Shown: positions 47,182-56,837 of the stretch, one piece after another
How positions within the stretch are numbered: the first letter of the stretch is position 1
Layout of the letters: each line of letters starts with the position of its first letter
Assembly: GCF_022693705.1 (NCBI RefSeq)
Contig: NZ_CP094288.1
Coordinates: 62,001-126,000, forward strand
Direction: 5' to 3'
DNA: 64,000 nucleotides
Source of the DNA: Infirmifilum sp. NZ
GTDB lineage: Archaea; Thermoproteota; Thermoprotei; Thermofilales; Thermofilaceae
Notes under the pieces: generated by a model
The model's input: only the letters and a program-made list of their open reading frames with translations
Databases searched by the model: none
Told to the model about the DNA's origin: nothing
Translations under genes and position numbers: made by a program

Positions 47182-47325
47182 CGCACCTGTAAGGCTTGCC
47201 GCGAGCTTCGCCTGCGGGTGGTTACTTTTTCAAAGTTTACACGCCTTCCTGGGGATGTCTGTGTAAACTCTTCGGCGGGCTGGGCGTAAGCGATTTAACA
47301 GCTTTTGAGGTTGCGTGGAAGCGAT

Positions 47326-48420
47326 ATGAGCGAGGCGGAGTACGAGAGGCTTTTTCAGCTCTTCAAGGAGCTGGTCGACGCGCTGGGCGTTTCGGGCTTC
47401 GAGGACGAGGTTAGGGGGCTCGTAGCCGAGAAGTTCAAGCCGCACGCCGACGCCGTCAAGGTGGACTCGCTGGGGAACGTTGTCGCCTCGATTAAGGGGG
47501 AGGATGAGAACTGCAAGGTGATGCTCGCCGCCCACATGGACGAGATAGGGCTCATGGTGTCTCACATCGAGAGCAACGGTTTCCTGAGGTTTACGGCTGT
47601 CGGCGGGGTGAACCCGGCTACGCTGATCGGGAACAGGGTCTGGGTCAAGGCGCGGAGCGGCAAAATTAAGGGGGTTGTCGGGGTGAAGCCCTGGCACCTG
47701 ATGTCGCCTGAGGAAGCCAAGAAGGTGCCGGAGTTGAAGGAGCTGTTCATCGACATAGGCGCCTCCTCGCGGGAAGAGGCCGAGAAGATGGGGGTAAGGG
47801 TTGGGGACGTTGCCGTCGTGGACAGGTCGGCCGAGAGGCTTAATGGGAGGCTCGTCGCGAGCAGGGCTGCGGACGACAGGATCGGCGTGGCGGTGCTCAT
47901 CGACGCGCTGAGCAGGGTTTACGGGTCGAAGCTGCCTTGCAGCGTCTACGCGGTCGCTACGGTGCAGGAGGAGGTTGGGTGCAGGGGTGCTCAGGTCGCG
48001 GCATTCGCGATCAAACCGACGATGGCTATAGCTGTGGATATCACCACCGCGAACGACGTAGCAGGCGTTAGTGAGCAGGACTACGTGGTGCGGGTGGGGA
48101 GGGGGCCGGCGATCAAGGTTATGGACGCGACGCGCACGTCCTTCCTCGGGCTCATAGCTCACCCTAAGGTCAGGGAGTTCCTGGTCAGGGTAGCCGAGGA
48201 GGAGGGAATCCCGTACCAGCTTGAGGTGCTTGTGGGCGGCACGACCGACGCTAGCACAATACACTTGACGCGCGAGGGCGTGCCGTCGGGCGTGGTTTCA
48301 ATCCCCACGAGGTACGCGCACTCACCCTCGGAGGTTTTCTCGCTCGAGGACGCTGTGAACGCTTCGCGGCTAATCGCTTCCGCGCTCGGGAGGTTCAGGC
48401 CTGAACTGCTCCTTTTCTAG
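47326..48420 (+). CDS. M42-family metallo-aminopeptidase
   Basis: 364 residues from ATG 47326. TET-type aminopeptidase with a two-metal centre: LAAHMDEIGLMV (His, Asp), ASRAADDRIGVAVLI (Asp), VATVQEEVGCRGA (Glu pair), AVDITTAND (Asp) and RYAHSPSEVF (His) are all present in order. Such enzymes form large tetrahedral complexes that trim peptides after proteasome action. TATA-like GATTTAACAG about 28 bases before the ATG supports this start in place of TTG 47305. Its 3' end overlaps the convergent gene at 48370 by 51 bases. Confidence 0.92.
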   Translation: MSEAEYERLFQLFKELVDALGVSGFEDEVRGLVAEKFKPHADAVKVDSLGNVVASIKGEDENCKVMLAAHMDEIGLMVSHIESNGFLRFTAVGGVNPATLIGNRVWVKARSGKIKGVVGVKPWHLMSPEEAKKVPELKELFIDIGASSREEAEKMGVRVGDVAVVDRSAERLNGRLVASRAADDRIGVAVLIDALSRVYGSKLPCSVYAVATVQEEVGCRGAQVAAFAIKPTMAIAVDITTANDVAGVSEQDYVVRVGRGPAIKVMDATRTSFLGLIAHPKVREFLVRVAEEEGIPYQLEVLVGGTTDASTIHLTREGVPSGVVSIPTRYAHSPSEVFSLEDAVNASRLIASALGRFRPELLLF

Positions 48421-49071
48421 GCAGGGCTTGAGGAGAACTCGCTCGACAAAGCCCCTGTAGCCCTTATCGGTGTTGGCTAGGGCCGTGTAAAGGCGATCTT
48501 CCGAGGAGGACGCGAGGTCCACCACTGCTACCTTACCGCCCCTCAAAGCGTACTTGTACAGGTGGCAGAACGCTCTCTCGACGTGTAGCTGCGCGCGAGC
48601 GAGGCGGGAGGGGTCGTCAGCGTGCAGGAGCTCCCTTGCGAGGGAGTAGGCGAGGAGTGCGAGGCTGAACTTCGGGTCAGCGGTAGCGGGGTCTTGGGTG
48701 AGCGGGTCCCTGGGAGCGGGGAGCAGGAAGAAGCGGAGTATTCTGCTGCGCGCCGACTTCTCCGCGTACTCGGCGTACATCCCCGCTTTTTCCCTGAGCG
48801 CTTCGAGGGACGCGCTGTAGGATTCTGCCAGCGCGCTTACGACTTCCTCAGCGTCCTGCAGGGGGTCGACAGGGGTTCCTGCGCCCAGGGACGCCCTGCA
48901 CTTCTCAGGAGGGTCGGGCGTCACGCTCCTCCTAACGCTGAGCAAGCGCAGAGGCTTGTACGATAGCACCCTAAGGAGCGTTGTATCAATTGCAACAGGG
49001 ATCTCTGCTACCCCTAGCTTTACAACCCCCTTAAGGTAAAAGTGCGGGAAGACTCTTTCGCATGAAAACAT
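48370..49071 (-). CDS. unknown helical protein
   Basis: 233 residues from ATG 49071. Not recognised. N-terminal 40 residues are hydrophobic/beta-like (KGVVKLGVAEIPVAIDTTLL); the middle and C-terminus are helical (DAEEVVSALAESYSASLEAL; YSLARELLHADDPSRLARAQ), resembling a helical-bundle protein. A TATA box TTTATATAAGC lies about 20-30 bases upstream on minus and is shared with the divergent oligopeptide transporter. A longer frame to 49218 would cross that promoter and is rejected. Tail-to-tail overlap of 51 bases with the M42 gene. Confidence 0.6.
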   Translation of the reverse strand: MFSCERVFPHFYLKGVVKLGVAEIPVAIDTTLLRVLSYKPLRLLSVRRSVTPDPPEKCRASLGAGTPVDPLQDAEEVVSALAESYSASLEALREKAGMYAEYAEKSARSRILRFFLLPAPRDPLTQDPATADPKFSLALLAYSLARELLHADDPSRLARAQLHVERAFCHLYKYALRGGKVAVVDLASSSEDRLYTALANTDKGYRGFVERVLLKPCLEKEQFRPEPPERGSD

Positions 49072-49085
49072 GACGATTTTTCGGT

Positions 49086-49105
49086 GAGAAAGCTTATATA
49101 AATAC
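49086..49105. promoter_or_regulatory. divergent TATA box, 49071 gene and oligopeptide operon
   Basis: GTGAGAAAGCTTATATAAATAC: the palindromic core TATATA reads as TATA on both strands, about 35 bases before GTG 49133 on plus and about 25 bases before ATG 49071 on minus. Confidence 0.55.
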
Positions 49106-49132
49106 ACCCTGTTTGCTGGCCCCAAAGAACCG

Positions 49133-51163
49133 GTGAAAGGGGTGGATAAGGGCAAGCGCAGGGGTATTTCAAAAGCGATAGCGGCCATCCTTGTCGCCGT
49201 TTTAGCTCTCGCTGGCATAGTGCTCTACTTTGCCTTCCAGAAGCCCCAGGCCCCCGCCGTCGCCCCAAGCGCCCCGACCGGGGCGGCTGGCCAGGGCCAA
49301 GCCGTCACCGCGCCTCCTTCCTCGAAGAAGTACCTCGTCGTGGCATTCTACGGCGCGCAGAGGCTCAACGAGAGCGAGCTCGTCCCATACTCCTCAATAT
49401 CACCTAGCTGGTACAGCAACTTGACGCTCGACGCCCTGATACTGGCTGGGCGGCAGGAGGCGAACAGCACGCTCAGGCAGGTCATATACAACACTATCCA
49501 GAAGGTCACGAACTACGAGCTTCCGCTAATATGGACTGTGCAGGGAATCGCCCCCCGAGCTTACTGGGAGTGGATAAGCGGCATATACTTCCACCCCACA
49601 CTGGAGTTCAGGTTTAACCACCTCAGCAAGGACCCTGGAGCCCCCAACCCTGACGTCATCAACTACGGCGGCACCGACGAGCCGCACAGCCTCGACCCCG
49701 CGGTGAGCTACTGGGGCTTCGACTGGTGGATTATGCACCAGATTTACGACAAGCTCGTGACGTACGAGGGCGAGAACTCAGAGTACGTTGTCCCGGCGTT
49801 GGGGGTTGCCTGGGCTTTCACCGAGGACGGCAACGAGTGGTTCTTCGTGATCAGGGGGAACGTCGTGTTCTACGATCCCTACGAGAATAAGACGTACCCC
49901 CTCGAGCCCCAGGACGTCGTGTACTCGTTCAAGAGAGTCGTCGCAATGCACCAGGACCCCTACTGGCTGATAGACACGTTCATTGACGTAGATAACTCCC
50001 AGGTCGTGAGCTTGGACGACTTCAGGGCAGAGCTCAGCAAGGGGCTCTACACGACTTTCAAGGGAGAGACGAGGAGGGTGAGCTCCTACGATGAGCTCCT
50101 CAGATTCTTCGGCTACAGCGGCCCCGTCGCCGGGGTAGTTAAGCTCAGGATGAAGATGCCTTACCCCGCGATCCTCAACGTCCTCGCAACTTCCCCTGCC
50201 TCGATAGTAAGCAGGCGCGTTGTCGAGGCTCACGGCGGCGTGACGCCCGGCGAGCAGAACCCCTGGGTTTACGAGCACCCCGTCGGGACCGGCCCCTACT
50301 ACCTCGTCAAGTGGGAGCACAGGCAGTACGTCGAGCTCGCCGCAAACCCATACTACTGGGGGAGTGATAAGCCGAAGGTGAAGAGGGTCAAGATCCACCT
50401 CATACCCGAGGATTCATCGAGGATAATGCTCTTCACGAAGGGTGACCTCGACATACTGGACATACCCCCCTCCCTCTTCTTCAAAGTGCAGGGCGTCACG
50501 CTGAACTACGGCGGGAGAACCTGGAGGGTTGTAAGCAGGGAGCAGCCCACGTTCTGGCTGTACTACATAGTCCCCAACGTGAACAAGGAGCCCTTCAACA
50601 AGCTCGAGGTGAGGCAGGCGCTCGCGTACGCGACTCCCTACGACCAGATAGCCTCGGTTGCCCTCGGCGGCCTGGCGTTCAAAGCCTACGGCGTAATACC
50701 CAAGGGGATGTTCGGCTTCCAGAACACCGACGTTATCAACTACACTTACAACCTTAACAAGGCTAGGGAGCTCCTGCAGAAGGCCGGCGTCGACCCGGCG
50801 AAGTACAGGTTCACGATAATAGTCCCCGAGGGCTACAAGGAGTTCCAGGACGAGGCGACGCTTCTGCAGGCCGCCTGGTCCCAGCTCGGCTTCCGGATAG
50901 ACATCCAGGTCCTCTCACGGCCAGTGTTCAACGACAGGATGATCAGTAAGGACGGCTTCGACATCAACCTCATCTCCTGGGGGCCGGACTACGTTGATCC
51001 GGACGACTACGCCGGCCCGCTCACGTACGGTGGACACACCTTTAGCAACATCCGCGTAACCCAGGTGTACAGCTTAGAGCAGGCACAGCAGCTCGTTGAC
51101 ATGGCAAGCGCGAAGGTCATAGAGTGCATGGACTGGGTTGTGATAGTTGGCCCTGGAAGGTAG
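49133..51163 (+). CDS. oligopeptide-type ABC substrate-binding protein, apparently circularly permuted
   Basis: 676 residues of the SBP_bac_5 (DppA/OppA) family. Residues 15-36 form a membrane anchor and 37-62 a Pro/Ala linker. The family's normal N-terminus (DVINYGGTDEPHSLDPAVSY, then IYDKLVTYEGEN) only begins at residue 174. Residues 95-165 (LILAGRQEANSTLRQVIYNT, then YELPLIWTVQ and WEWISGIYFHPTLEFRF) match what is normally the C-terminal end of the fold. The protein then stops soon after GPLTYGGHTF, where that end would follow. So the C-terminal segment has moved to the front: a circular permutation. Binds a peptide or sugar outside the cell and feeds DppBCDF. GTG 49142 is an alternative start. 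Confidence 0.82.
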   Translation: MKGVDKGKRRGISKAIAAILVAVLALAGIVLYFAFQKPQAPAVAPSAPTGAAGQGQAVTAPPSSKKYLVVAFYGAQRLNESELVPYSSISPSWYSNLTLDALILAGRQEANSTLRQVIYNTIQKVTNYELPLIWTVQGIAPRAYWEWISGIYFHPTLEFRFNHLSKDPGAPNPDVINYGGTDEPHSLDPAVSYWGFDWWIMHQIYDKLVTYEGENSEYVVPALGVAWAFTEDGNEWFFVIRGNVVFYDPYENKTYPLEPQDVVYSFKRVVAMHQDPYWLIDTFIDVDNSQVVSLDDFRAELSKGLYTTFKGETRRVSSYDELLRFFGYSGPVAGVVKLRMKMPYPAILNVLATSPASIVSRRVVEAHGGVTPGEQNPWVYEHPVGTGPYYLVKWEHRQYVELAANPYYWGSDKPKVKRVKIHLIPEDSSRIMLFTKGDLDILDIPPSLFFKVQGVTLNYGGRTWRVVSREQPTFWLYYIVPNVNKEPFNKLEVRQALAYATPYDQIASVALGGLAFKAYGVIPKGMFGFQNTDVINYTYNLNKARELLQKAGVDPAKYRFTIIVPEGYKEFQDEATLLQAAWSQLGFRIDIQVLSRPVFNDRMISKDGFDINLISWGPDYVDPDDYAGPLTYGGHTFSNIRVTQVYSLEQAQQLVDMASAKVIECMDWVVIVGPGR

Positions 51164-51198: not shown

Positions 51199-52203
51199 AT
51201 GACTGATCTCAAGTACTTTATTTTGAGGAGGCTGATCACGTTCCTGCCTACAGTAGTGGGTGTTGTTGCCCTCACGTTCGTCATCGCGAGGATGATACCT
51301 GCAGACCCAGCGAGGCTCTGGGCCGGGGGAGTGAAGGCGAAGGAAGACGTCATAGCTCAGCTCGCGCAGAAGTACCACCTCAAGGAGCCGCTGTACGTCC
51401 AGTTCTTCTACTACCTCAGGGACATCTTCACCGGCGACTGGGGCGTCTCCCCAGTAACCCGGAGGCCAGTCTTAGCCGACATTGCCTCGTACTTCCCGGC
51501 GACGGTGGAGCTCGCGGTCTTCTCCTTCGTGCTGATCGTAACGGTGGGGGTTCCGCTCGGCATGGTGGCTGCCCTCAAGCGCGACAGCTGGGTGGACCAC
51601 TTAGTCAGGGTGATCTCGATCGGCGGGGCTTCGCTCCCCGTCTTCTGGCTGGGCGTCCTCCTCCAGCTGGCTTTCTACCACAGCTTGGGCGTGCTCCCCG
51701 CCGTAGGCAGGGGTACCCCGCCGCCGAGGGTGTTTACAGGCATGTACACGCTGGACAGCCTTCTCTGCGGCGACTTCGCCGCGTTCTGGGATAACCTCAG
51801 CCACATGGTACTCCCCGGGGTGACGCTCGCGTTCTCGTCGGTGGGTCTCATAGCGAGGATCACCAGAGGGAGCATCCTAGATACGCTCTCCGCTGAGCAC
51901 ATCGACTTCGCCCGCATGAGGGGTTTGACGAGGTGGCTCATGCTCAAGCACATACTGAAGAACAGCCTCGTTCCGATAATCACCGTGCTGGGCCTGACGT
52001 TCAGCTGGCTGCTCAGCGGGGCAATTGTGGTCGAGGCCATCTTCGCCTGGCCAGGGATAGGAAGCTACGCGACAAGCGCTATCGCGAACGTCGACTTCCC
52101 GGCTATCGTTGGCGTCACCCTCCTCATGGGACTGATCTACGTGGCGATAAACTTCCTCGTGGACATCCTCTACGCGCTCGTCGATCCAAGGGTGAGGCTA
52201 TGA
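51199..52203 (+). CDS. dppB: oligopeptide ABC transporter permease (DppB-type)
   Basis: 334 residues from ATG 51199. Six membrane helices; the first, YFILRRLITFLPTVVGVVAL, with LTFVIARMIPADPARLW, is the typical DppB opening. The BPD coupling loop RMRGLTRWLMLKHILKNSLV carries the 'EAA' motif region. Ends in VDILYALVDPRVRL, the common DppB terminus. Upstream frame to 51124 overlaps the binding-protein gene and is rejected. Overlaps dppC by four bases. Confidence 0.92.
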   Translation: MTDLKYFILRRLITFLPTVVGVVALTFVIARMIPADPARLWAGGVKAKEDVIAQLAQKYHLKEPLYVQFFYYLRDIFTGDWGVSPVTRRPVLADIASYFPATVELAVFSFVLIVTVGVPLGMVAALKRDSWVDHLVRVISIGGASLPVFWLGVLLQLAFYHSLGVLPAVGRGTPPPRVFTGMYTLDSLLCGDFAAFWDNLSHMVLPGVTLAFSSVGLIARITRGSILDTLSAEHIDFARMRGLTRWLMLKHILKNSLVPIITVLGLTFSWLLSGAIVVEAIFAWPGIGSYATSAIANVDFPAIVGVTLLMGLIYVAINFLVDILYALVDPRVRL

Positions 52204-53126
52204 GCCTGGTGCTCCTTAAAAGAAGGAGGGGTGCGGGGCAGCGTAGGAGCGAGCGGAAGCTGATCCTCCGCATACTCATGGGCTCTCCAGCTGGTGTTGC
52301 AGGCCTTGTCCTATCGCTCTTGTTCATAGTTCTTGGTGTGGTTGGGCCCCACATAACCCCCTACGACCCCATCCTGATAGACTTCGCGAAGGTCAACCAG
52401 CTGAGGCTACAGCCCCCGTCCCTGGCGCACCCCTTCGGGACAGACGAGTTCGGGCGCGACATGCTGAGCAGGGTTCTCTACGGGTCACGCCTCTCGCTGT
52501 TGTCGGCGGTCACAGTCCTGGGCGTCGCCGTCCCCGTGGGCATCATGCTTGGCTTGCTGGCGGGTTACTTCGGTGGGGCAGTCGACGAACTGATAATGAG
52601 GATCACGGACGTATTCCTCGCGTTCCCAGGCATAGTGCTAGCTATAGCATTCAGCGCCACCCTAGGCGCGGGGCTGTGGTCAGCGATACTGGCGGTGGCC
52701 CTGATCTGGTGGCCCTCCTACGTTAGGCTCGTTAGGGGGCAGGTAATACAGGTGAAGAGCTCGCTGTTCGTGGAGGCGGCGAAAGCCCTCGGGCTTAGCC
52801 CGCTGAAGATCATGATCAGGCACCTCCTGCCGAACATCTTAACACCGGTCATAGTCATGGCTACTCTCGATTTCGGAAGCGTGGTTATCGTGACATCATC
52901 CCTCTCGTTTATCGGCCTCGGCGCGCAACCGCCTCTACCCGAGTGGGGGAGGCTCGTCTCTGACGGGAGAGCTTACTTCCCGCAGGCCTGGTGGTACGTG
53001 TTCTTCCCGGGCTTGATGATATTCCTAGTGTCGCTGGGCTGGAACCTTTTAGGGGACACCCTGCGGGATGTGTTCGACCCGAAGTACAGGAGGCGGCTGG
53101 AGTTTAGGGAGGTGGAAGGAGAATGA
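52200..53126 (+). CDS. dppC: oligopeptide ABC transporter permease (DppC-type)
   Basis: 308 residues from ATG 52200, which overlaps the dppB stop (ATGA). AHPFGTDEFGRDMLSRVLYG is the DppC signature; the coupling loop EAAKALGLSPLKIMIRHLLP and the end LRDVFDPKYRRRLEF are typical. Forms the membrane pore with DppB. The open frame extends upstream to 51933, but the extra part lies within dppB and is not coding. Confidence 0.92.
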   Translation: MSLVLLKRRRGAGQRRSERKLILRILMGSPAGVAGLVLSLLFIVLGVVGPHITPYDPILIDFAKVNQLRLQPPSLAHPFGTDEFGRDMLSRVLYGSRLSLLSAVTVLGVAVPVGIMLGLLAGYFGGAVDELIMRITDVFLAFPGIVLAIAFSATLGAGLWSAILAVALIWWPSYVRLVRGQVIQVKSSLFVEAAKALGLSPLKIMIRHLLPNILTPVIVMATLDFGSVVIVTSSLSFIGLGAQPPLPEWGRLVSDGRAYFPQAWWYVFFPGLMIFLVSLGWNLLGDTLRDVFDPKYRRRLEFREVEGE

Positions 53127-54097
53127 GCGGCAACCCCTTGTTGAGTATCGAGGGGCTCAGGGTCTACTTCTACACCTACGCAGGTGTAGCCAGGGCGGTC
53201 GACGGAGTCGACCTCAGGCTGTACGAGGGGGAGAGCTTTGCCCTCGTGGGCGAGACGGGGTGCGGTAAGTCAACGGTGGCGCGCGCCATCATGGGGTTGA
53301 TCCCGCCCCCGGGGAGAGTCGTCTCGGGGAGAATAGTGCTCGACGGCGTAGACATCTTAAGCCTCTCCGAAGAGGAGTTGCGCAAAATCCGGGGCTCGAA
53401 GGTAGCGTACATAGCACAAGACCCGATGAGCGCCCTAGACCCCCTCTTCACAATAGGGGCTCACGTGGCCGAAACGATCGTTTCCCACAACTCGGCCAAG
53501 TGGGCTGAAGCCTGGATCAAAGCTCTAAAGATCCTCAGTAGTGTCGCAATTCCTGAACCGGAGAGGAGGGCTAGGAGCTACCCCCACGAGCTGAGCGGGG
53601 GTCTGAAGCAAAGGTCCGTAATTGCGACCGCCATCGCGAATAATCCCAAGCTTCTCATAGCCGACGAGCCCACAACGGCTCTGGACGTCACTATTCAGAC
53701 GCAGGTCATGGACCTCGTCATGGACCTGAAAAAGCGGTACAGGTCCACACTTCTTCTGATAGCACACAACCTTGGGCTGGTGGCCGAGTACACCGAGAGG
53801 GTTGCTGTCATGTACCTCGGGAAAATCGTCGAGGTCGCAGACGTTGAGGACCTCTTCGAAAAGCCCCTGCACCCCTACACGCAGGGGCTGCTTAAGTCTG
53901 TCCCGAACCCCCTCAGAAACATCGAGAAGCTGTACTCGATACCTGGCAGCGTCCCGAGCGCTGTTAATCCTCCTCAGGGCTGCCGGTTCCACCCGAGGTG
54001 CCCCTTCGCCACCGACAAGTGCCGCGTCGAGGAGCCGCCCCTAGTTGAAGCAGAGAAGGAACACCTCGTAGCATGCTGGCTGTATAGCAAGGGGTGA
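53123..54097 (+). CDS. dppD: oligopeptide ABC transporter ATPase (DppD-type)
   Basis: 324 residues. Walker [10 protein letters not shown], signature [17 protein letters not shown] (GLKQR where most have GMRQR), Walker [18 protein letters not shown]-loop [10 protein letters not shown]. The C-terminal oligo_HPY extension has [14 protein letters not shown] and the cysteine-bearing [15 protein letters not shown], which in this family binds an iron-sulfur cluster or metal. Overlaps dppC and dppF by four bases each. The last 128 bases are nearly identical to those of dppF. Confidence 0.92.
53957..54084 (+). repeat. 128-bp near-identical tail, copy in dppD
   Basis: Identical to 54934-55061 except one base (A at 54060, G at 55037). 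The rest of the two genes differ widely, so the tail must be a recent gene conversion or duplication. Confidence 0.9.
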
Positions 54098-55074
54098 TGG
54101 GTGTGAGCGTGCTCGTAAGAGTGGAGAACCTGAAGAAACACTTCCCGGTTAAAGGCTTCCTGTTCACAAGAGGGTGGGTTCGGGCGGTAGACGGGATAAG
54201 CTTCTCAATCCACAGGGGTGAAACGCTGGGACTGGTGGGAGAGTCGGGCTGTGGCAAAACCACTGTTGGAAGGCTAGCGGTACGTCTACTTGAACCGACG
54301 AGCGGCTCGATATACTATGACGGCGTTAACATCTTCGAGCTCAAGAACAGGCAACTGAAGGAGTTTAGGAGGAAGGTGCAGATAGTGTTTCAGGATCCCT
54401 ACAGCTCCCTGAACCCGAGAATGATGGTTTACGATATTATAGCTGAAGCCGTAACTGAGACAAACTCGGGCGGGGAGGGCGATCTTGAGGACTACGTGGC
54501 TTCGCTCCTCGAGAGGGTCGGCCTCTCCGGGGAGCACCTGTACAGGTACCCTCACGAGTTCAGCGGTGGACAGCGGCAGAGGATAGCCATAGCTAGGGCG
54601 CTGGCCGTTAAGCCCGAGTTTCTCGTCCTGGACGAGCCGACGTCGGCGCTTGACGTCTCCGTTCAGTCCCAGATCCTCAACCTCCTCAAAGACCTCCAGA
54701 AAAACTACAACCTCACCTACCTCTTCATATCCCACGACCTCGCCGTGGTCCGCTACATGAGCCACCGCGTAGCGGTAATGTATCTCGGGAAAATAGTCGA
54801 GTTGTCAGACTCCGCAACAGTATTTGAGAAGCCCCTGCACCCCTACACGCAGATGCTGCTCTCAGCGATACCTATCCCCGACCCTAAGCTGGCCAAGTCT
54901 AGGACGAAGATCAAACCCTCCGGAGAGCCGCCCAGCGCTGTTAATCCTCCTCAGGGCTGCCGGTTCCACCCGAGGTGCCCCTTCGCCACCGACAAGTGCC
55001 GCGTCGAGGAGCCGCCCCTAGTTGAAGCAGAGAAGGGACACCTCGTAGCATGCTGGCTGTACAGTAGATCTTAA
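54094..55074 (+). CDS. dppF: oligopeptide ABC transporter ATPase (DppF-type)
   Basis: 326 residues. Walker [11 protein letters not shown]-loop [14 protein letters not shown], signature [15 protein letters not shown], Walker [17 protein letters not shown]-loop [11 protein letters not shown]. Ends with [17 protein letters not shown] and the cysteine-bearing [15 protein letters not shown] shared with DppD. Last gene of the five-gene operon; the start GTG 54094 overlaps dppD. Later in-frame starts (ATG 54097, GTG 54103) are possible. Confidence 0.92.
54934..55061 (+). repeat. 128-bp near-identical tail, copy in dppF
   Basis: Partner of 53957-54084, in the same reading frame, differing by one base. 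Encodes the C-terminal metal-binding extension of both ATPases. Confidence 0.9.
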
Positions 55075-55188: not shown

Positions 55189-55635
55189 TTATATGATGCA
55201 CACTTCGCCTTTAGAAGTTACTTTCACGCGGTTGCCGGTCTTCACGTGCTGAAAGATCTCGTCACCAACTTTGTCTATGAGTGCTATTTTCTTCCCGAAC
55301 CACTCGTGGGCCAGGGCTACTCCTGATGATGTCAAGGTGTCGGCTTCGCGGGTGCAGACGATAGCCTTAGGTGCCACGCCTAGAAGGGCGATTTCGGCGA
55401 TTATTATGCCGCCGGTTGTGGACCCGATTCCGGAGGGTATTATCAGTATCTTGCCTGTGAGGTCTACACCGTATACGTGGGGGTTGTTCTTGTCACCGCC
55501 TATCGCGCGCTTTCTACGCCTGATCACTGTCTCCTGGTACGTTGCGAGTATGTTGAAGCCTTGAGGGGAGACAACGGCCTCTCCATCCACGTCTCCTGGG
55601 AGGATTGCCCGGCCTTTGAAGCACGTCTCAGGCAT
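55189..55635 (-). CDS. aconitase X small (swivel) subunit, divergent
   Basis: 148 residues of the DUF126/AcnX small-subunit family: FKGRAILPGDVDGEAVVSPQ, then LTGKILIIPSGIGSTTGGII (the conserved serine loop) and VKTGNRVKV. An insert (TVIRRRKRAIGGDKNNPHVYG) differs from the usual form and the serine loop reads GSTTGG where GSSTGS is common. Partners the large subunit two bases upstream. AcnX enzymes dehydrate phosphomevalonate or hydroxyprolines; given the divergence and neighbours, a different hydroxy-acid is plausible (inference). Confidence 0.82.
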   Translation of the reverse strand: MPETCFKGRAILPGDVDGEAVVSPQGFNILATYQETVIRRRKRAIGGDKNNPHVYGVDLTGKILIIPSGIGSTTGGIIIAEIALLGVAPKAIVCTREADTLTSSGVALAHEWFGKKIALIDKVGDEIFQHVKTGNRVKVTSKGEVCII

Positions 55636-55637
55636 AT

Positions 55638-56837
55638 CTACTCACCCCTGAGGTAGGAGAGGAGCTGCGGCGTATCCATGAAGGCGGCATGGCTGTAGTA
55701 ACTGAGCTTCCCGGAGTTTGTGAGTATTTTTAGCCGCTTCGAGGTGGGTATGTTTGTCAGCATGAGAGGGCAGAAGCTATCCACGTCCCCACCCGCGTCC
55801 CTGAGCTTGGAGTACAGCTTCGTGGATTTGAACTCTCGGGCTATCTTCGGTGCAGCTAGGAGTAGCGTGCGGGTCTTGAGCTCCGCTTCGGAAAGCTCTC
55901 TAGCGAAGAAGTCGAGCTGCTCTCGGGACAGGTGTGGGCAGCCGATTATCGCCAGGTCGGGCTTCCCGGGGGCGGCTTTCGCCTCCATTTCTCTCTTCAT
56001 TTTGGAAAGCTCCTCATCCCCCACTCTCAGCACTTTGTGATCGCTTCTCAAGATCTTTCTCCCGTTTTCCACAGCCTCGGGAGTGAGGTCCTCCGCGTGA
56101 AATAGCCCGACGGCACCCCACACTGCCATAGCGGCTCCCATGTCCTTCAGCTCGTACTCCTCAAACTCCCACCTGTCCAGACCCGCTATGTATGGGACCC
56201 CGTCCAGGACGCTCTTCCCGATTAAGCTCCCGAGAATGAAGGGGCTTGGCTTAGACGATGTTTTCACCTCGACTAGCCAGTCGGCTTTCCTGTTCTCGTC
56301 TAAAAGAAGTCCGAAAAGCGGGGTTTCTCCGGTGACGCCCGAGAGCAGCTCGACTATTGAGGAGTTCCTGTTTGTTCTAGCGCCCAGCACGGAGTTGGCG
56401 TATATCACTGCGGAGGATTCGGCCCAGGCTAGGATGTCACCGTATGAGGGCTTGTTGCCTATGTAGTAGGGCGTGCAGGTGAAAGCGTCCGGGTCGATGA
56501 GCCCTAGCCTCAGAAGCAGGGACTCCAGCCTCCCCTGCTTGCTGTAGAGGTACCTCCCGACGAGCTTCTCGACGAGGGGTATTGACGTCTGAGGGGGCCG
56601 TGGGTTAGCGGTTAAAGGCACCCTGGACTTTAGGTCCTTGCTGGCCAGTTCTTCAAGAACCATGAACATCGACTTTACGAACCTGAGGCCGCACGAGGTA
56701 ACCCAGTGGCAGCTCTTGCACTCAGCAAACCTCTCAGCGCCGTAGACCTTCCCGTATGCCTCCAATACTCTGTAGCACTTTCTCAGGGTTTCTTCGCGGC
56801 CTTCGACGAGGCGCCTCTCATCAACGGGACCTGTCAT
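55638..56837 (-). CDS. aconitase X large (catalytic) subunit, divergent
   Basis: 399 residues of the DUF521/AcnX family, iron-sulfur hydro-lyases. Well kept: FTCTPYYIGNKPSYGDILAW, AESSAVIYANSVLGARTNRN, LVEVKTSSKPSP and the C-terminal FCPLMLTN. But the N-terminal active-site region, usually 'KSAHVSG(V)SY', is KSCHWVTSCGLRF, with two extra Cys. That change argues against it being ordinary phosphomevalonate dehydratase. Downstream of an SCP2 gene and a dienoyl-CoA-reductase-like gene on the same strand. Confidence 0.82.
   Translation of the reverse strand: MTGPVDERRLVEGREETLRKCYRVLEAYGKVYGAERFAECKSCHWVTSCGLRFVKSMFMVLEELASKDLKSRVPLTANPRPPQTSIPLVEKLVGRYLYSKQGRLESLLLRLGLIDPDAFTCTPYYIGNKPSYGDILAWAESSAVIYANSVLGARTNRNSSIVELLSGVTGETPLFGLLLDENRKADWLVEVKTSSKPSPFILGSLIGKSVLDGVPYIAGLDRWEFEEYELKDMGAAMAVWGAVGLFHAEDLTPEAVENGRKILRSDHKVLRVGDEELSKMKREMEAKAAPGKPDLAIIGCPHLSREQLDFFARELSEAELKTRTLLLAAPKIAREFKSTKLYSKLRDAGGDVDSFCPLMLTNIPTSKRLKILTNSGKLSYYSHAAFMDTPQLLSYLRGE

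Follow-up and report, generated by a model that had tools for sequence, protein, structure and literature searches.

The binding-protein gene and its operon

The window, by which we mean the whole stretch of 64,000 nucleotides that was analysed, carries on its forward strand an open reading frame with a GTG start codon (49133-51163), whose product is very probably the membrane-anchored substrate-binding subunit of a Dpp/Opp-type importer of a Thermoproteota archaeon, its binding domain being a family-5 (cluster C) domain that has undergone natural circular permutation; the function is inferred. Features of the gene and of its product are as follows.

49094..49103, + strand: TATA-box-like sequence TTATATAAAT, about 30 nt 5' of the start codon (read from the sequence)
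49133..51163, + strand: circularly permuted SBP_bac_5 protein, order Y-Z-X, 676 aa (ORF, Pfam, segment HMMs, AlphaFold)
49172..49234, + strand: N-terminal transmembrane anchor helix, residues 14-34 (AlphaFold secondary structure and hydrophobic sequence)
49235..49318, + strand: flexible linker (leash), residues 35-62 (pLDDT below 50 at 35-62)
49328..49351, + strand: N-terminal strand of an extra hairpin, residues 66-73 (AlphaFold strand; matching sequence continuous in XYZ relatives; pairing inferred)
49379..49627, + strand: segment Y, residues 83-165, homologous to the canonical SBP family 5 C-terminus (hhalign, HMM)
49619..49651, + strand: fusion linker NHLSKDPGAPN, from old C-terminus to old N-terminus (junction comparison)
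49628..50365, + strand: segment Z, residues 166-411, corresponding to the N-terminal half of canonical proteins, which reaches from their start to roughly position 145 of the Pfam profile (Pfam, segment HMMs)
50369..51052, + strand: segment X, residues 413-640, corresponding to the second half of canonical proteins, roughly positions 145-365 of the Pfam profile (Pfam, segment HMMs)
50987..50989, + strand: Asp619 in WGPDYVDPDD, aligned with DppA aspartate D436 (alignment to DppA; role from PMC12136057)
51053..51160, + strand: C-terminal tail, including VVIVGPGR (residues 668-675), the second strand of the cut hairpin (AlphaFold, alignment)

By the general logic of archaeal promoters, TTATATAAAT is inferred to be the promoter of a short-leader or leaderless gene. 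An open reading frame without Pfam match (48370-49218, - strand) is divergent from the binding-protein gene and, as called, overlaps its start. Downstream lie four transporter genes.

51200..52203, + strand: dppB-type permease (BPD_transp_1 2e-43, BPD_transp_1_N; ORF from 51124, inner ATG at 51200)
52200..53126, + strand: dppC-type permease (BPD_transp_1 7.5e-35, OppC_N)
53123..54097, + strand: dppD-type ATPase (ABC_tran, oligo_HPY)
54094..55074, + strand: dppF-type ATPase (ABC_tran, oligo_HPY)

Two permeases and two oligo_HPY ATPases alongside the gene meet the description of a Dpp/Opp-type gene set. On the other strand, downstream of the operon, is an Aconitase X gene (AcnX, 55189-56837, Pfam E 1.9e-88); a small adjoining ORF could be the second part of AcnX.

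For analysis the protein was divided into Y (83-165), Z (166-411) and X (413-640). Its Pfam SBP_bac_5 (PF00496) match covers residues 219-635 (profile positions 2-365, E 7.6e-71, 239.6 bits for a cut-off of 32.4), which is most of Z plus X. The canonical order is Z-X-Y, with the C-terminal segment of some 75 residues after the profile region, whereas in the window protein Y precedes that region; the canonical linear order is therefore not met, and the protein is a permuted variant of SBP family 5 (PF00496).

Homologues with the same order

The earlier note had proposed a search for homologues of the same order, and such proteins exist in independent genomes. Full-length colinear Y-Z-X homologues, from 69% down to about 40% identity, were found in several Thermoproteota families when 41 relatives and 398 genomes from the phylum were searched; others turned up on scanned GTDB contigs, from Thermoprotei, Staphylothermus, Ignisphaera, Sulfolobales, Pyrodictiaceae, Acidilobaceae and Thermofilaceae bins. 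That the order was made by misassembly or in a chimeric gene can be given practically no credit. Metagenome bins are indeed the source of many relatives, but the window belongs to a genome closed in one contig, and the same order recurs at 40-69% identity in many independent assemblies. Misassembly is thereby refuted for the window order, for which chance is excluded as well, and for the X-Y-Z order described below (XYZ), the lone DHVE2 permutant L107 not being covered.

The closest same-order homologue (69% identity) comes from another family of the class. No full-length same-order homologue was present in the five congeners searched or in G207, a further genome of the species. This absence, set against the 69% match in another family, may reflect either horizontal transfer or strain-level loss.

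Two groups share the window order: W1, the window group, and W2, a longer group of 750-800 aa. In XYZ relatives the stretch VVVVGPKGSGA...SKPLVVVAYEV is continuous. In W1 the first strand of this stretch is the C-terminus of the domain and the second its N-terminus, whereas in W2 both hairpin strands are N-terminal. The two groups thus have the same order with different cut points.

Segment Y is the displaced C-terminus

A profile of Y, built from 19 homologues, was compared by hhalign with a 570-column alignment of 27 canonical proteins from archaea and, in three cases, bacteria. Seventy-four columns were placed onto columns 491-564, that is at the very C-terminal end of the canonical alignment (Prob 98.8, P 1.2e-16), the next-best placement having a P of 0.26. 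The Y HMM also matches the C-terminus of many canonical archaeal proteins (best E 2e-14), and by BLAST residues 94-166 pair with residues 485-557 of L113, a canonical protein (E 9e-9). There is no Y after X in the window protein, whose chain ends there with a short added strand. What is expected of a natural permutant is met: both pieces are homologous to the canonical protein, in swapped order, and the order is fixed in homologues. The data support homology of Y to the canonical family-5 C-terminal segment, and so circular permutation.

The earlier note had placed the C-terminal SBP_bac_5 segment, at residues 95-165, ahead of the usual N-terminal start. The displacement is borne out, without a second copy of the segment, and the start is to be corrected to near residue 83. 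It had also stated that the protein ends where this segment would have followed, 35 bases before dppB; the first part stands, and the stop lies 36 bases before the dppB ATG.

Taken by itself, the Pfam annotation, which leaves out everything before residue 219, resembles that of an ordinary protein with an N-terminal extra domain, and the earlier note had named as its refutation an unrelated domain at residues 65-170, added to a binding fold whose C-terminal lobe is complete without it. We find this scarcely tenable. Ordinary members, too, have a C-terminal segment that the Pfam model does not reach (it matches 88-476 of 559 in L113), and Y has its homologue precisely in that segment, of which the window protein has no other copy. 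An unrelated extra domain is ruled out by the profile comparison.

Predicted structure of the permuted domain

AlphaFold returned one confident fold for the window protein (pLDDT 89.8, pTM 0.84, with a 31-sequence alignment). The model is confident over the whole domain from about residue 65, only the anchor and the leash being disordered. As far as a model can tell, this agrees with the earlier proposal of a complete fold with a single membrane anchor at the N-terminus, and the domain should clamp its ligand like DppA. In a Foldseek search the best PDB matches were DppA proteins, but the TM-scores on the target, from sequential alignment, reached only about 0.54-0.70; this is expected if a sequential aligner cannot place Y, and by itself is no proof of a bilobed DppA-like fold.

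Strands are predicted at residues 66-73 and 668-675. Since the matching stretch is continuous in XYZ relatives, an extra beta-hairpin was probably cut in its loop to give the window protein. A short loop joins Y, the old C-terminal segment, to the old N-terminus, and the new termini would have opened in the hairpin before Y; we infer that the effect of the permutation is to move the leash to another point of the domain.

It could be argued that Y completes a neighbouring subunit in a domain-swapped dimer and not its own chain, as a flexible Y-Z junction would permit. We regard this as very improbable, the monomer model being confident throughout the domain and the Y-Z linker being short, about 6-11 residues.

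Other rotations in the same genome and in other archaea

All three rotations coexist in the closed single-contig genome of the window: canonical ZX(Y) in L001, YZX in the window protein and XYZ in L004. Segment HMMs likewise give Y-Z-X in homologues of the window protein, X-Y-Z in L004 and Z-X-Y in canonical proteins. In L004, Pfam profile positions 145-361 come ahead of 1-142 within one ORF, and the gene heads its own operon, with the layout of the window operon as read from ORF order. AlphaFold on an XYZ relative, A4 (L098), gave a pLDDT of 47.4 with a shallow alignment of 11 closely similar sequences, so that the XYZ topology rests on sequence alone.

The same genome encodes, at C1:684986-687280 (L139:3987-6284), a 766-aa binding protein with a signal peptide and a C-terminal membrane helix (L005). 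X-Y comes first in it (P 8e-19), and its second half shows weak matches (HDGT, GPFYL) that are arranged as would be expected for Z. L005, which has matches in 23 of the 31 genomes searched, is probably another circularly permuted XYZ lineage.

A fourth topology, Q (X''-Y-Z-X'), is cut inside X. Segment HMMs identified it in L091, L092, L107, L112 and L136-138, and it was then found in L169-171, L174, L176 and L185-187; it recurs among Thermoplasmatota and Archaeoglobi as well as in one Asgard and one Crenarchaeota MAG. In the only bacterial genome searched with L107, that of Inquilinus limosus, only Z-X' matches were obtained, which carry no information on order. The permuted Archaeoglobus protein L112 (L112:5914-7653) has a PGF-CTERM sorting signal at its new C-terminus, so that a re-sited anchor would there be C-terminal.

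Several permutants have close canonical relatives. The clearest case is L107 (DHVE2 group, permuted) compared with L113: 383 aa align at 78% and 159 aa at 86% identity in swapped order, while the N-terminal anchor is common to both (70% identity). Likewise L136 (permuted) and the canonical L129 share swapped pieces at 64% and 69% and an anchor at 59%, and the pieces of L185 (permuted) are 72% and 71% identical to those of the canonical L148. As judged from these alignments, the binding domain rotates and the N-terminal anchor is retained. The simplest route, which we infer, would begin with a tandem duplication of everything that follows the anchor, after which both ends would be trimmed. No trace of such a duplication was seen beside L107, where the only matches were the gene itself and, on the opposite strand, a distant canonical paralogue.

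How often the order changed

Trees were built after re-ordering all segments to Z+X+Y. At least 7 changes of order are required by the tree of 109 sequences, and at least 9 by that of 94 more widely sampled sequences. The hairpin permutants (W1, XYZ, L091/092 and W2) form one clade (support 100/100), with W2 nested among XYZ. Forcing all W sequences together costs 147 log-likelihood units, and a single origin of the window order is rejected (p-AU 7e-66). The Q topology is scattered over five positions in the tree: L107, L112, a Methanomassiliicoccales group, L091/L092 and L185-187. The canonical L129 (L129:5845-7650) is nested inside the permuted Methanomassiliicoccales clade and may be a candidate reversion to the canonical order.

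The rival reading that survives best is that permutations were fewer, most of the apparent later ones being gene conversion between permuted and canonical paralogues of the same genomes. Such paralogues do coexist, a canonical sequence (L129) does sit inside a permuted clade, and the fusion linker is alike in distant permutants: KDPNAT-NPDT in L107, KDP.AP.PD in the window group and KDASAPEPDT in L137. Because of this similarity of linkers, gene conversion could account for some of the apparent events. As an explanation of most of them we nevertheless judge it unlikely. The Archaeoglobi permutants L185-187 have a different linker, and both of their pieces are 71-72% identical to the canonical L148; in L107 the resemblance to the canonical sister group extends even to the N-terminal anchor; the hairpin is not cut at the same point in W1 as in W2; and conversion would need a whole-gene replacement that spares the junction.

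Ligand, tether and possible role of the permutation

In E. coli, the DppB scoop enters the DppA cleft, and DppA R383 and D436 hold the dipeptide termini, D436 holding the ligand amino group (PMC12136057). This aspartate aligns with Asp619 of the window protein, and it is invariant among the homologues in A1 and A2; the arginine is not obviously kept. The ligand is likely a peptide or similar amine, an inference that rests on the conserved amino-group-binding aspartate, without binding data. An M42 glutamyl aminopeptidase gene lies upstream on the same strand (47305-48420) and would fit a role in peptide uptake. The protein would work with the adjacent DppBCDF on a peptide ligand, both points being inferred in the absence of substrate, expression or transport data.

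That the permutation tethers the protein from a different face, as the earlier note had it, is plausible but not shown. We take domain I of DppA to comprise residues 1-33, 183-260 and 479-507, and domain III residues 261-478. With these presumed boundaries the chain is opened in the C-lobe in W and Q but in the N-lobe in XYZ, so that W and Q would move the leash from the N-lobe to the C-lobe, no measurement being available. Recurrent permutation of archaeal family-5 proteins, with at least 9 changes, few cut sites and one of them, inside X, used at least 5 times, might be adaptive, the domain rotating on a fixed leash; we offer this only tentatively and incline somewhat against it. Rotation would change the lobe tethered to the membrane, and so the docking on the transporter, the role of leash position being untested.

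Natural circular permutation is mostly encountered as a single curiosity that separates distant relatives. The present family has four topologies, at least 9 changes of order, a reused cut site and sister pairs still 71-86% identical, and its transporter operons look intact where checked. How permutations arise in genes, and whether the site of the tether matters for transport, can be tested from this family. There is also a warning for annotation: the family profile covers part of the protein only, so that permutants look like ordinary proteins that have an unusual stretch at the N-terminus or are cut short at one end.

Comparison with known systems

The XYZ, Q and W2 relatives (L004, L107, L112, L044 and others) share with the window protein the family and the fused old termini; they differ in having their new termini elsewhere, between Z and X, inside X, or before the hairpin strand. 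SBP_bac_5 proteins (PF00496) such as DppA and OppA (cluster C) have the same domain content, ligand-binding aspartate and dppBCDF operon and, as far as the predicted model indicates, a similar fold. They differ from the window protein in their order, Z-X-Y instead of Y-Z-X with termini in the hairpin before the C-terminal segment, and in lacking its N-terminal membrane-helix anchor, which some canonical archaeal members do have.

No earlier report of permuted family-5 or archaeal binding proteins was found in the open-licence literature. That binding proteins can be permuted is known; what appears to be new is the family in which it happens, how many topologies there are and the fact that it recurs. 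The nearest precedent is TpMglB-2 (Tp0684) of Treponema pallidum, a circularly permuted sugar-class binding protein described as 'Type Ic / Cluster Bc', for which adaptation to tethering was raised as a possible reason (PMC4990184). It too is a natural circular permutant among ABC binding proteins and is membrane tethered. The window protein does not belong to Cluster Bc, being assigned to family 5 (cluster C) by both profile and structure search: TpMglB-2 is a bacterial sugar-binding protein of type I / cluster B with one topology, whereas the proteins described here are archaeal, of cluster C, and have several cut sites and origins.
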